A stretch of 34,812 nt of DNA from Anaerolineales bacterium (lineage in GTDB: Bacteria; Chloroflexota; Anaerolineae; Anaerolineales; UBA11579). Shown here piece after piece: positions 28,321 through 34,347 of this stretch; the first letter of the stretch is position 1, and the number at the start of each line of letters is the position of its first letter. A model generated the notes under the pieces. That model saw only the letters and a program-made list of their open reading frames with translations, did no database searches and was not told where the DNA came from. The translations under genes were made by a program, and so were the position numbers. The stretch spans positions 1 to 34,812 of the forward strand of contig JANJTX010000012.1 in assembly GCA_024710875.1 (NCBI GenBank). The letters are read 5' to 3'.

Positions 28321-29010
28321 TCAACCTTGCTTGTCCGTCTCCGGTGCAGTCGCCCACAAGTAGCCGATATATAACGCAATCACCCCCAGCAGCAAACTCA
28401 GGGAATGCCAGTCAAACGACCCCAATAGGATGCCGCTGCCCCCGCTGGCGGGCAACAGCCCCCCCAGCGCGATGAAGATATTCCCCAGCATCCGGTTGCG
28501 CAACACCCCTTTGCGCCAGAAGATAAAAATGGAATACAGCGCCCCACCCACCAGCGCCAGCGTGCCATAGATATTCAGCAAAATCGTCAGCCCAATCATT
28601 AAGCCATTCCGCCCCATGATTTCGCGATACTGCTCGGCCAGCGGCACGGCCGCGTCAAAGCCCGCCGGGTTTACTGGCGCGACCCGTAGCAATTCCACGC
28701 ACAGCAAACTCAATGCCACCAATACTGCCGTCAGGACGGCCGCCCGCCCCGGCTTGCGCACCAGCAAGGCCACCGTCCCCTGCCCCAGCCACGGCGCGGT
28801 CAGCATCGCCCCGGTCAGGTACCAGCTCTTCAAAGCCAGTTCAGAAAAACCCACACTCAACAAGGTTTCGGCAAACACCCCCACCCCGAACAGCAGCGCC
28901 CCAAAACCCCAGAACAGCAGGTGCAGACCCTTACGGTGGCGGTAGCGGTCCCACACCGAGCCGGCAAAAGCCAGCGCCACAATCGTTGCCAGGGCCGTAA
29001 TCAGATTCAT
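28321..29010 (-). CDS. Conserved multi-pass membrane protein
   Basis: A 229-residue protein with about seven hydrophobic helices: 2-20, 29-50, 62-84, 89-108, 135-160, 172-190 and 200-222. Short basic loops (DRYRHRKG, RKPGRAA, RKGVLRNRM) suggest the cytosolic sides. I recognise no named family and no catalytic motif. It overlaps the HTH regulator by 4 nt (ATGA), so it is translationally coupled to a regulator and a PucC-like carrier. The function may relate to pigment, lipid or light, but that is only a contextual guess. Confidence 0.8.
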   Translation of the reverse strand: MNLITALATIVALAFAGSVWDRYRHRKGLHLLFWGFGALLFGVGVFAETLLSVGFSELALKSWYLTGAMLTAPWLGQGTVALLVRKPGRAAVLTAVLVALSLLCVELLRVAPVNPAGFDAAVPLAEQYREIMGRNGLMIGLTILLNIYGTLALVGGALYSIFIFWRKGVLRNRMLGNIFIALGGLLPASGGSGILLGSFDWHSLSLLLGVIALYIGYLWATAPETDKQG

Positions 29011-29636
29011 GTCCGCTCCCCTTCAAAGCCCTGATACGTCTCCAGCAGGGCCAGCAAAATCGCGTCCGTATAATCGCTCACCCGCCGAAACATCTCACCC
29101 CAGGCGTGCGAAGACTGTATCGCCGCCGACTCGTACACGTGAAAGGTGGCATCCTGCAACACTTTACGAAAGAACAGAAAAGCCTGGGTGGCTTCCACGG
29201 CGCTCAATCCGGAGCGGCGGCCAATCCCGGCATAATCCACCCCTATTGCACGCGCTTCGCGTCCTGCCGATTCTGGATCGGTAGACTGAAAACGCATCAA
29301 CCCCTGCATCAATGCCCGCCCACTGCGCCGATAAGCCGAACGCGCAGTGCCATCCAGTTTCTGGTACCAGGGCTCGGCCTCCAGGTGTGCTTCGCTGATT
29401 TGCATTCTGGCATAGCCCAGGGCGCTCTGGGCCATGACATTGGCGCTTTCGGTCGAATCCGCCTGTTGCGCCTTCAACCATAATTCCACTTCTGTACGCC
29501 GAAAACGCCGATGCCCACCCTGTGTGCGGTGAACCGGCAGGCGCTGCTGGTCGGCCCAATTCCGCACCGTGCTGGGGTGTACCCCGAGCATTTCGGCTGC
29601 GGCACTCAAACTCATCCACTCACTCGCCACCGACAT
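29007..29636 (-). CDS. MerR/excisionase-type HTH regulator with RsbRD-like C-terminal domain
   Basis: A 209-residue protein. Residues 7-55 are a MerR-type winged helix (SLSAAAEMLGVHPSTVRNWA then TQGGHRRFRRTEVELWL). The C-terminal part (about 65-205) is all-helical; GVDYAGIGRRSGLSAVEATQ followed by AFLFFRKVLQDA and a final YTDAILLALLETYQGF resemble the RsbRD N-terminal sensor domain of stress proteins. It has no B12-binding motif, unlike CarH/LitR. It overlaps the upstream carrier by 1 nt (TGATG) and the downstream membrane gene by 4 nt. It may control its own operon, whose promoter carries direct repeats. DNA binding is likely from the HTH; the C-terminal call is tentative. Confidence 0.82.
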   Translation of the reverse strand: MSVASEWMSLSAAAEMLGVHPSTVRNWADQQRLPVHRTQGGHRRFRRTEVELWLKAQQADSTESANVMAQSALGYARMQISEAHLEAEPWYQKLDGTARSAYRRSGRALMQGLMRFQSTDPESAGREARAIGVDYAGIGRRSGLSAVEATQAFLFFRKVLQDATFHVYESAAIQSSHAWGEMFRRVSDYTDAILLALLETYQGFEGERT

Positions 29637-30940
29637 CAGCCCATATCCGCCAGGGCCGCCCGCTCGGCCACCGAAATCTTTTCAGCCGCCCGGGTTTGGA
29701 AAAGACCCACATCCACCCCGCGCAGAATCACCAGCGAAACCGCCAGCATCACCAGTTCCAGGCCAAAGGCCACCTTATAGCCCAGAGTCGGATTATCGAC
29801 CAGTAGATTAGCCACATCCCTGACAACCCCGCTGATCATATTGCCCATCAAGCGCGCCACCGCGCTTGCCATGCCCCACGCCCCAATGTACAACCCAATC
29901 TGGCTGGCGGTGGTCATATCCAGCATCAATGAAAGGTTCGAAACCGTCGAAAGCCCGGTGGCGACTCCCAGCGTCACCACGCCCAGATAGAATGTACCGC
30001 TGTGCTCCAAAAACCCGCTGGCAATAATCAGCCCAAATGCCACCATCCCAATCCACGCCCCCAGGCGCGCCTGCGTCAGCCGCGGGATTTTGCGTTCCAG
30101 CCCGCCGCCCAACCCCAACGCCAGCAGGAAGAAAGTGCCCCATATCGAAGTTATCCGGGTGGTCGCCCGTACATCCAGGCCAAAAGCCTCGGCCCCATAG
30201 GGTTCGAGCAAAATGTCCTGCCCCAAAATCGCGGTCAACAGCAACACCAGGTAAATGAAGAACCGCCACACCTGTGGGTTGTGGGTCAGGGCCGCGGTCA
30301 TGTCGCGCCAGGTGTATTCTTCACTGGGCTCAGCCAAAGTCGCGTGGCGCGGCTCCAGTCCGGCCAGGCCCAGCGTCCCCAGACCGAGCGCCAGCCCGGC
30401 CACAATCAAAAAGGAGCGCTGCAGGATTTCCGGCGTGTAGGTCTCCAGCAGTTCTCCCAACCCGTAGGAAGTAAAGATAATCCCCAAAATCATGATGAAA
30501 AACATCACCGCAATCGTACGCCCGCGCGCCGCCGCCCCGCTGAATTCAGTCGCCAGCGAGAAGTACGAAACCGTGGCGATATTAAAGCCCATGCCCCAGG
30601 CCCCAAATGCCAGCGCCCCAACCAGGAAACCCAACCCGGGCTGTTCGGCAATCAGGTAAGCGACCTGCGGCGCAGCCGCCACGCCCAACACACATAAAAG
30701 CAGACCAATGAAAATGTACGGTGTACGCCGCCAGCCCAAAATCGGGTGGCGGTCAGAGAATGAGCCAATCGCCACCTGAATCGGTGAAAAGAGGTACGGT
30801 AGCGAGGCAATCAGCCCGACCAAGGCCGCTGAAATCGCCAGCTCTTTTATCATAATCCGGTTGAGGGTGCTGTTTATCGGCACCAGAGTCATCGCCACTG
30901 CCGCGTGGATCAGGCCAACTTGTAATCGTTTGAGCAGCAT
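29636..30940 (-). CDS. PucC-like (BCD family) MFS transporter
   Basis: A 434-residue, 12-helix membrane protein. Family-typical sequences include TLNRIMIKELAISAALVGL, SLPYLFSPIQVAIGSFSDRH and ILGWRRTPYIFIG, as in PucC/LhaA proteins of phototrophs. Homologues also occur in non-phototrophs, where the cargo is unknown. I start at ATG 30940 because AGGAG lies five bases upstream; in-frame codons further upstream run through the promoter. First gene of a three-gene overlapping operon. No chlorophyll or carotenoid gene is in the window, so a pigment role is not supported here. Confidence 0.9.
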   Translation of the reverse strand: MLLKRLQVGLIHAAVAMTLVPINSTLNRIMIKELAISAALVGLIASLPYLFSPIQVAIGSFSDRHPILGWRRTPYIFIGLLLCVLGVAAAPQVAYLIAEQPGLGFLVGALAFGAWGMGFNIATVSYFSLATEFSGAAARGRTIAVMFFIMILGIIFTSYGLGELLETYTPEILQRSFLIVAGLALGLGTLGLAGLEPRHATLAEPSEEYTWRDMTAALTHNPQVWRFFIYLVLLLTAILGQDILLEPYGAEAFGLDVRATTRITSIWGTFFLLALGLGGGLERKIPRLTQARLGAWIGMVAFGLIIASGFLEHSGTFYLGVVTLGVATGLSTVSNLSLMLDMTTASQIGLYIGAWGMASAVARLMGNMISGVVRDVANLLVDNPTLGYKVAFGLELVMLAVSLVILRGVDVGLFQTRAAEKISVAERAALADMG

Positions 30941-31007
30941 TGCAACTCCTGAATTATCCGATGGTGAGGAAACAGGAGCGAATGTAATCGATTGTGAGAA
31001 CCTTCGC

Positions 31008-31048
31008 AATATAAGTTTACACAGATTTTGTAGATTTTGTAGAGATTG
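31008..31048 (-). promoter_or_regulatory. Promoter region of the PucC-like operon with three 9-bp direct repeats
   Basis: Plus-strand units CAGATTTTG, TAGATTTTG and TAGAGATTG lie back to back at 31022-31048. On minus they contain TCTACA twice (31029-31034, 31038-31043), 9 bp apart. A -10 candidate TATATT lies at 31008-31013; the -35 position is inside the repeats and is poor, as at activator-controlled promoters. The start codon is 67 nt downstream of the -10. Confidence 0.5.
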
Positions 31049-31057
31049 ACTTGTTTC

Positions 31058-31093
31058 GGCCGGGCGGGCGACGGCTCCCCTGCCCACCCGGCC
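31058..31093 (-). other. Strong GC hairpin after the trans-sulfuration gene
   Basis: GGCCGGGCGGGC (31058-31069) pairs with GCCCACCCGGCC (31082-31093), 11 of 12 positions. It sits 21 nt after the stop codon but lacks a T run on minus (GAAACAAG follows), so it is a weak intrinsic terminator at best, or an mRNA-end stabiliser. Confidence 0.6.
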
Positions 31094-32465: not shown

Positions 32466-33329
32466 CTACTTAATCTCCCAATAGGCGATTTCGTCAAAGC
32501 GCACGGTGAAATTCGCGGTCTGGTCGGAGCCAAGGTTGAAGCCGAATTTGTTGGCGGCATTGAATTCGCCATCGGTCACTTCGGCGAGGAACACGCCATT
32601 GGCATACAGCCGGATCTTATTGCCAACCGCGTGCACGCCTATCCGGTTGGTCTGATTGGGACCGGCCAGAATCGCATCGCTGGGAGTCCAGTCTTTGAGG
32701 ATGTCAAAATTGGTGCCGTCCCACTTGGCAAGGCGGAAGTGACCATCACACGAAAAGCTATAGATAAAGCCGTGGTTGGGGTCCGGGGCGCGGAACATCA
32801 GGCCGTAGCGGTCCTTGCGGGCGCAGACATCCGGCGTGAGGGCCGTGGCTTCCAGATAGAAGTCTTGAATCGTCGGCCAGGAGATGGTCCAACTGCTGGG
32901 CCCCTGGATCTTCTTCATCGTGTAGTGGAAGTAGCCGTTCTTGATTTCGGTTTTGATTTCAGCCGTGTCGAACAGCGTCCAGTTGCCTTCATTATTGAAG
33001 GCATCCCGCCAGTCCGGGTCGCCGAGCAGGGCGCGCGGGTCATCGCTCGTCAGAGTGGCGGTTGGGCTGGGCTCCGGCGTGGGGCTGGGTTCGGGTGTGT
33101 TGGTCGGCGTTTCGGTGGCGGTTGGCTCGTTATTGGCGGGCGGCGCCTCGACCGTAGCGCTGGGCTGAATTTGCGCCGCTTCAACCGTCTGGGCGACCTG
33201 GGTGCTGATGACGACAAGGTCGAGCGTGGGTTCAGCGGCCGGGCCGGGGCTGGCAGGGGCAGCGGTGAGACTGCAGGCGAGCCCGAGCAGAGCGGCGAAC
33301 AGGAAGTAGAAGAGCGTTTTGGTTGGCAT
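32466..33329 (-). CDS. Lipoprotein with jelly-roll-like domain, paralogue 1
   Basis: A 287-residue exported lipoprotein. The signal peptide ends in the lipobox LGLAC (Cys19). A Thr/Pro/Glu-rich spacer (about 55-95) leads to a beta-rich domain of about 185 residues, beginning LLGDPDWRDAFNNEGNW and including DRYGLMFRAPDPNHGFIYSF and CDGHFRLAKWDG. The fold pattern resembles the concanavalin/LamG or DUF1080-type sandwich, without catalytic residues that I recognise. Two Cys (in PDVCARKD and SFSCDG) could form a disulfide and are conserved in the neighbour. Probably a surface-binding protein. Followed by no closely linked gene. Confidence 0.82.
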   Translation of the reverse strand: MPTKTLFYFLFAALLGLACSLTAAPASPGPAAEPTLDLVVISTQVAQTVEAAQIQPSATVEAPPANNEPTATETPTNTPEPSPTPEPSPTATLTSDDPRALLGDPDWRDAFNNEGNWTLFDTAEIKTEIKNGYFHYTMKKIQGPSSWTISWPTIQDFYLEATALTPDVCARKDRYGLMFRAPDPNHGFIYSFSCDGHFRLAKWDGTNFDILKDWTPSDAILAGPNQTNRIGVHAVGNKIRLYANGVFLAEVTDGEFNAANKFGFNLGSDQTANFTVRFDEIAYWEIK

Positions 33330-33504: not shown

Positions 33505-34347
33505 TTACGGGATGGCCCAGTAGGCCATGTTGTCATAATAGACGCTGAATTGCTGGCTGCTGACCGCCCCGGCCAGCAGGCCAAAACGCCCGCCGCTGGG
33601 GTAGGTTTCATCCACAAAAGTGATGATGAGCACGCCGTTGGAATAGATGCTGATTTGCGAACCCTGCGCCCGCACGCCCACGCGGTTGACCGCCCCGGCC
33701 CCAGCGGCGATGGCCGGGTGGGCGGTCCAGTTCTGGATGGTGGTGAGGGTACCGCCATCCCAGGCGGTGAGGCGGTAGCGGCCATCACAGGAGAAGGCCA
33801 GCTGGTAGCCGTGGTTGGGGTCCGGGGCGCGGAACATGAGGCCGTACTGGTCCTGGCCGGAGCACGGGCCAGTGGTGGCTTCAACCTCAAGGTAAAAGTC
33901 ATAGAGGTTCAGGCCGGCCAGGGTCCATTGGGGGTAGCCGAGTTGCTGGAACATGGTCAGGCGCAGGCGGTTTTCGTCAATTGCCACACCGAAGCGGTCA
34001 TCGGTGTAGGTGGACCAGTAGGAGCCATCTTCAAATGTGTCGGTCCAGTCCGGGTCGCCGAGGGTGCGGCGCGGGTCGTTGGGGTCGGGCGTGGGGGTCG
34101 GGGTGACGGTGGGCGTTGCAGTTTTCGGTTCGGGCGTTTGAGTCGCAGTGGGCGGCGGGGTATGGGTGATGGTCGGTGGGATGCTGGTCTGGGTGGCGGC
34201 ATTGGCGGCCAGAGTAGCCTGCACAATCTGCGCCGCGAGGGTTTCGGCAGCGGCGCGTTGTTCTTCGGTGTTGCCGGAGAACACCAGGGTGCAGCCGGGC
34301 AGCCAGAGGGCAGCCACGAACAGGAGCAAAATCAGGGGGCGTTTCAT
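33505..34347 (-). CDS. Lipoprotein with jelly-roll-like domain, paralogue 2
   Basis: A 280-residue lipoprotein built like its neighbour: signal with lipobox WLPGC (Cys19), a short helical stretch (AAAETLAAQIVQATLAANAA), a Thr/Pro repeat linker (about 57-90), then the same beta domain with DQYGLMFRAPDPNHGYQLAF and CDGRYRLTAWDGG. The disulfide candidates (TTGPCSGQD, AFSCDG) match. The core motif is nearly identical between the two, so this is a tandem duplication that has diverged. The ATG overlaps the dihydrouridine synthase stop by 4 nt (ATGA), an unusual coupling of a surface protein to a tRNA-modifying enzyme. No strong Shine-Dalgarno. Confidence 0.82.
   Translation of the reverse strand: MKRPLILLLFVAALWLPGCTLVFSGNTEEQRAAAETLAAQIVQATLAANAATQTSIPPTITHTPPPTATQTPEPKTATPTVTPTPTPDPNDPRRTLGDPDWTDTFEDGSYWSTYTDDRFGVAIDENRLRLTMFQQLGYPQWTLAGLNLYDFYLEVEATTGPCSGQDQYGLMFRAPDPNHGYQLAFSCDGRYRLTAWDGGTLTTIQNWTAHPAIAAGAGAVNRVGVRAQGSQISIYSNGVLIITFVDETYPSGGRFGLLAGAVSSQQFSVYYDNMAYWAIP

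Follow-up and report, generated by a model that had tools for sequence, protein, structure and literature searches.

What do the direct repeats do that precede an operon encoding a PucC-like transporter in a member of the Anaerolineales, and which protein would read them? The repeats are found in the window, that is, the whole stretch of 34,812 nucleotides analysed here, which belongs to a genome bin of 2.53 Mb (82.6% complete); on the minus strand, upstream of the pucC-like gene, the sequence is AATCTCTACAAAATCTACAAAATCTGTGTAAACTTATATTGCGA. The answer to which we assign a probability of roughly three in four, and which derives from the comparison of sequences, is that these repeats are a putative autoregulatory operator to which the product of the operon's second gene would bind head-to-tail. 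The product of the first gene, pucC, matches PF03209 with 263 bits, against a cut-off of 21, whereas the product of the third gene, denoted MEM, matches no Pfam family; its model consists of seven long helices and is confident (pLDDT 91.7). With the pucC, regulator and seven-helix genes overlapping or directly adjoining, the regulator would control the amounts of both the transporter and itself (Table 1).

Table 1. Features of the pucC operon and its promoter in the window
Feature	Position	Strand	Remark
Operator unit 1 (candidate), TCTACA core (AATCTCTACA)	31038..31043	-	
Operator unit 2 (candidate), TCTACA core (AAAATCTACA)	31029..31034	-	9 bp past unit 1
Operator unit 3 (candidate), degenerate TCTGTG	31020..31025	-	9 bp past unit 2
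Operator unit 4 (candidate), degenerate CTTATA	31010..31015	-	10 bp past unit 3
-35 element, TTGCGA	31004..31009	-	Comparative alignment; TTG inside anchor
-10 element, TACATT	30981..30986	-	17 bp spacer from -35; outside anchor
pucC, PUCC-family MFS transporter, operon gene 1	29636..30940	-	PF03209, E 5e-78
Regulator, wHTH plus globin-fold sensor domain (predicted), operon gene 2	29007..29636	-	Overlaps pucC stop
MEM, seven-helix membrane protein, operon gene 3	28321..29010	-	Start overlaps regulator stop

Two other features of the neighbourhood are worth recording. A GC-rich inverted repeat of 12 bp (31058-31093, 92% complementary) follows the gene for a Cys/Met PLP enzyme and is possibly the terminator of that gene; a terminator scan that requires a run of T did not report it. 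On the minus strand, 32466-33329 and 33505-34347 encode adjacent, similar predicted lipoproteins with the common motif YGLMFRAPDPNHG...FSCDG, apparently the result of a tandem duplication.

The array runs from TCTACA through a second TCTACA to TCTGTG in 9-bp steps (31043-31020), with the degenerate CTTATA 10 bp farther on. TRF detects a period of 9 with 2.3 copies at 100% over 31023-31043, so that both this program and the sequence place the repeats where the earlier note had put them. That note described three 9-bp repeats with TCTACA cores: two exact cores and the 9-bp steps are indeed there, but the third core is TCTGTG, and the fourth, degenerate unit had been missed; thus, the third unit and the -35-proximal one are both degenerate in the window itself. 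The promoter was located by comparative alignment of orthologous upstream regions, and a sigma70 scan yielded no site at its thresholds. The combination of TTGCGA, 17 bp and TACATT occurs once in the window against 0.06 expected, a comparison in which this very site supplied the letters of the -35. Given that unit 4 directly abuts TTGCGA, the array lies beside the -35 element and ends against it (31009-31004) rather than covering it, as had been claimed.

Taken in isolation, the window would hardly settle whether this array is anything more than an AT-rich UP element, or a microsatellite due to chance or slippage, preceding an ordinary promoter. The A+T content of the array is 75% within an otherwise GC-rich window, and the statistics of its periodicity are modest, with p = 0.0024 for Markov shuffles of the intergenic region and p = 0.011 for shuffles of the AT-rich stretch itself. 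A dispersed genomic repeat family is ruled out since the exact 14-mer AATCTACAAAATCT has a single site in the window genome. With window-only statistics of this kind, the decisive evidence for the reality of the array is its conservation across orthologous promoters.

Such conservation is readily apparent across the order, and here the expectation on which the earlier note had staked its claim was confirmed. With at least 10 of 12 bases matching, AAATCTACATTG is present in 59 of the 65 distinct pucC-regulator promoters, which come from two overlapping sets of relatives made distinct by promoter sequence; in the same 65 regions, the antisense control matches once (1/65) and the mirrored consensus twice (2/65). 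The anchor contains TTG, so the conservation of this trinucleotide is not independent evidence. Independent evidence of conservation comes from two features that lie outside the anchor, namely, the -10 element, found at 17-18 bp in the orthologous promoters, and the upstream unit. Among 50 non-redundant promoters, 35 have a second, AATCTACA-like unit 10 bp upstream and 6 have it 9 bp upstream; accordingly, the 9-bp spacing noted previously is valid for the window but is a minority variant in the order, where 10 bp prevails. The position of unit 4 in the window is that of the most conserved unit of the orthologues, AAATCTACA followed by TTG, and unit 3 lines up with the upstream member of the pair that is conserved among the relatives. 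The window promoter belongs to the divergent end of the set (9/12, shuffle p 0.095) but has more units. When five promoters were aligned with MAFFT, the upstream part yielded no information because gaps disrupt the register. In a separate observation, the -10 element at L057, L065, L070, L073 and similar loci is GGTAGATTT or GATAGATT, that is, the operator unit inverted (AAATCTACC on the other strand).

The distribution of the element across the related genomes bears on its specificity. When up to one mismatch is allowed, TCTANNNAAATCTACATTG matches in 28 of 151 genomes and never more than once per genome, compared with 3 matches of the reversed control across the same 151 genomes. Of these 28 matches, 23 fall within the system, 21 of them beside pucC or the regulator gene and the other two at L210 and L196; BLAST identifies pucC, the regulator or MEM adjoining the match at 22 loci, L210 included. 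At L210 (G147, contig C39), a MEM paralogue located on a contig other than that of the regulator has an operator copy of its own, TCTATGAAAACCTACATTG, which suggests a second target. L196 is a contig end with almost the same sequence as the pucC promoter in a relative. Among the five matches outside the system, four are located in open reading frames (queA-like in two cases) and look like coincidences. The fifth, at L187, is intergenic and has no explanation. All this makes the interpretation of the array as an UP element or a microsatellite very improbable: positions other than A/T are conserved (C at 0.80 in the upstream unit, outside the anchor, and at 0.90 in each of two positions of the proximal unit), the register of 9-10 bp is fixed, each of the 28 genomes with a match has a single copy, and the 14-mer is not dispersed through the genome.

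If the repeats are an operator, which protein would bind to them? Judging by its phyletic pattern, the element follows the regulator gene rather than pucC. It is retained in front of the regulator gene where pucC is missing (L058, L060, L061, L085, L094), whereas the pucC orthologues in G035, G082, G125, G095 and G088, genomes that yielded no match to the regulator (the bins are incomplete), show repeat-pair scores of 10-11 of 18, which is background; upstream of the G088 pucC there is a 10/12 match that involves the -35-proximal half only. Among loci where the regulator gene comes first, the element is present at 12 of 38 only. Matches to the regulator were found in 82 of the 151 relatives, weak ones counted, mostly as one full-length copy; in most of the close ones among these, pucC lies upstream of the regulator gene and is its conserved partner in the order. 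The records that contain close relatives of the regulator bear the names Chloroflexi, Anaerolineae or Anaerolineales. MEM homologues are encoded near the regulator at 31 of 81 order-level loci and at 3 of 40 loci across the phylum. As to other neighbours, a DUF6391 (PF19928) gene is found near the regulator in 26 order-level loci, for example, at L133 (4620-5153). Copies of pucC distant from the regulator exist at L220 and L221 (G032, G057), with a repeat-like AAATCTACGCGAACCTCTATA upstream of the latter and a degenerate version only upstream of the former.

The association can be traced, in part, beyond the order. Of 301 genomes from the phylum, 129 contain a member of the regulator family, and although the exact order-level operator consensus is absent from 40 upstream regions of regulator orthologues outside the order, pairs of AAATCTAC spaced by 9-11 bp occur in a minority of them, reaching a score of 14 in 5 of 40 regions versus 5 of 1600 AT-matched windows from the same loci, and a score of 15 in 3 of 40 versus 0 of 1600. 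At L273, L274, L277, L279, L280, L284 and L285, from other classes, such pairs with 9-10 bp spacing are found close to where the regulator gene begins, and most of them are on the opposite strand. Because these pairs are a minority and are mostly on the opposite strand, they support a shared site preference but not a shared promoter layout.

It could be argued that the repeats are bound by a different protein, such as a CarH/LitR paralogue, with the adjacent HTH protein binding elsewhere, given that TCTACA agrees with the TnnACA half-site of CarH (PMC9304148), a resemblance that the earlier note, giving the half-site as TnTACA, had recognized. A different binder, however, would not be expected to have its site accompany the regulator gene whether pucC is present or not and fall to background at pucC orthologues of genomes without a detected regulator, nor would it account for the near absence of other copies of the element in the genome scan or for the similar sites near the regulator gene in other classes; we therefore regard this alternative as improbable, even if less so than the absence of any operator.

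What kind of protein, then, is the regulator? In the AlphaFold2 model (mean pLDDT 82, pTM 0.64), the C-terminal domain is helical, and comparisons of sequence and structure indicate that the protein is a BldC-like winged HTH (residues ~5-58) fused to a globin-fold domain (~62-207) resembling the non-haem sensors of the RsbR type. The wHTH is closest to BldC (6amk, E 2.3e-9, compared with E 0.57 for CarH), and the structural comparison with BldC 6ama gives a VIA Z of 9.2 at 37% identity; in Foldseek, BldC is in the top rows with E only 0.02, and there is no match with E <0.001. Trp31, Thr42, Gly44 and His46 of BldC are kept in all 43 regulator members (43/43), whereas the base-contacting Arg30 is replaced by N, L or S, and Leu43, involved in the head-to-tail contact, mostly by Q or K. 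The protein contacts must therefore differ from those of BldC, and we do not claim membership in the BldC family; the regulator also misses the cut-off of NF033787 (47 bits vs 77) and, with its extra domain at ~62-207, is not the lone wHTH without an effector domain that characterizes BldC.

The assignment of the sensor domain to the globin fold is well supported by the model. In VIA-align, the best matches are 3pmc (Z 14.0), 3pmd (12.7), 2bnl (11.0) and 3zta (10.7), namely, pXO2-61, pXO1-118, the N-terminal domain of RsbR and a stressosome protein, in alignments of 125-142 residues with 4-13% identity that reflect fold similarity only, and helical folds may reach high scores by chance. The 'RsbRD-like helical domain' of the earlier note thus holds at the level of the fold (2bnl, Z 11.0). 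Haem globins and phycobiliproteins score below the RsbR-type matches, with Z ~10. This ranking, together with the lack of a conserved haem-ligand histidine (the commonest histidine column of the sensor domain is occupied in 13 of 43 members) and the weak matches to Pfam Rsbr_N (PF08678) in 8 of 43 members (best E 0.0012; none in the window protein), underlies the assignment to the RsbR branch; RsbRD_N (PF14361) is weakly matched in 3 of 43 (0.02) and likewise not in the window protein. The regulator had been described as devoid of a B12 domain, and in agreement with this, no Pfam match to a B12-binding domain was found in the window protein or in the 25 commonest families of the 43 members.

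The simplest mechanism that would accommodate these findings is one in which the wHTH of the regulator binds successive units of 9-10 bp, each an A-rich tract followed by TCTACA. Every unit would take up a single protomer, and the protomers would line up head to tail along the same face of the double helix, in the manner of BldC and CarH on direct repeats; the steps of 9, 9 and 10 bp fit such a register. As the array ends against the -35 element, its occupancy would control the access of RNA polymerase to that element, and a signal sensed by the globin-fold, apparently haem-free C-terminal domain would alter oligomerisation or DNA affinity. We infer the binding, its head-to-tail mode and the sign of regulation rather than observing them here. 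With the same operator and the same protein, the regulator might instead be an activator, its protomers upstream of the -35 element recruiting RNA polymerase in class II fashion upon loading of the sensor, and indeed, an array upstream of, not over, the -35 is in the usual place of a class II activator, while the promoter elements of the window (TTGCGA and TACATT) are only moderate. Nevertheless, activation seems to us a doubtful, if by no means far-fetched, reading considering that many orthologous promoters, with a near-consensus -35 (TTGACA or TTGACC) and a 17-18 bp spacer, should need no activator, and that the placement of the tandem sites in other classes, near the start codon and for the most part on the opposite strand, is better suited to a repressor. 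Repression by denying the -35 element to RNA polymerase is thus favoured over activation by about two to one.

To what signal would the regulator respond? The earlier note proposed a light circuit, which is not upheld: none of the 151 related genomes contains PF00124 (Photo_RC, the type II reaction centre) or BchZ, the latter (TIGR02014) giving no more than a sub-cut-off signal in two. This search covered type II reaction centres and BchZ only, and the window genome is 82.6% complete. A photosynthetic role of pucC is accordingly unsupported: the transporter belongs to the same family (PF03209, 263 bits) as PucC/LhaA, the MFS proteins of light-harvesting assembly, but neither a type II reaction centre nor BchZ is detectable in its hosts. 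Among the titles and abstracts listed for PucC in Chloroflexi or Anaerolineae, none was relevant. Only the analogy of fold points to a stress or lipid signal. We would venture, quite tentatively, a still broader scheme, namely, a family of one-component regulators, found throughout the phylum Chloroflexota, that combine a BldC-like wHTH with a haem-free RsbR-type globin sensor, bind cooperatively to 9-10 bp direct repeats of AAATCTACA through a wHTH-wHTH contact other than that of BldC and, on sensing a lipid-like or other hydrophobic signal, autoregulate a PucC-type transporter that has no part in photosynthesis. Once found, the signal of the regulator would inform the role of PucC-type transporters in non-photosynthetic bacteria. 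More immediately, a candidate operator, regulator and target operon are now defined for the mostly uncultured order Anaerolineales.

How does this arrangement compare with known systems? In classical MerR regulation, a palindromic operator lies within a 19-20 bp spacer between -35 and -10; the array discussed here consists of direct repeats outside a 17 bp spacer. The globin fold with no conserved haem ligand is shared with RsbR-N and other stressosome sensors, pXO1-118, pXO2-61 and the N-terminal domain of MabR, but RsbR functions within the stressosome and contains a STAS domain, whereas here the fold is C-terminal to a wHTH, such that a sensor fold of the stressosome type would be tied directly to DNA, without a stressosome. 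MabR of M. tuberculosis demonstrates that a haem-free globin domain can belong to a transcription factor, although, unlike the present regulator, it combines this domain with a PucR-type HTH and a GGDEF domain (PMC11617747). CarH, CarA and LitR (5c8e; CtMerR, 8jbs) resemble our case as one-component sensor regulators with a MerR-like wHTH (GGHR wing) and tandem direct repeats with a TnnACA core at the -35, but they are B12 photoreceptor repressors, and CarH recognizes 11-bp repeats, nnnnTnnACAn, with the -35 within a repeat (PMC9304148), compared with steps of 9-10 bp and a -35 beside the array. BldC of Streptomyces (NF033787; 6ama, 6amk), the closest solved wHTH, binds head-to-tail to 9-bp direct repeats, AATTXXXX(C), in variable copy number (PMC5859096); the array here similarly combines an A/T-rich part with a C and varies in copy number, with AAATCTACA as the unit and steps of 9-10 rather than 9 bp, but BldC is a lone wHTH of 68 residues, whereas the regulator carries a sensor domain. 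By analogy, the operator and its regulator are most simply read as an arrangement of the same sort as the direct-repeat operators of BldC and CarH, and this case tests the reach of head-to-tail binding to direct repeats beyond these two.
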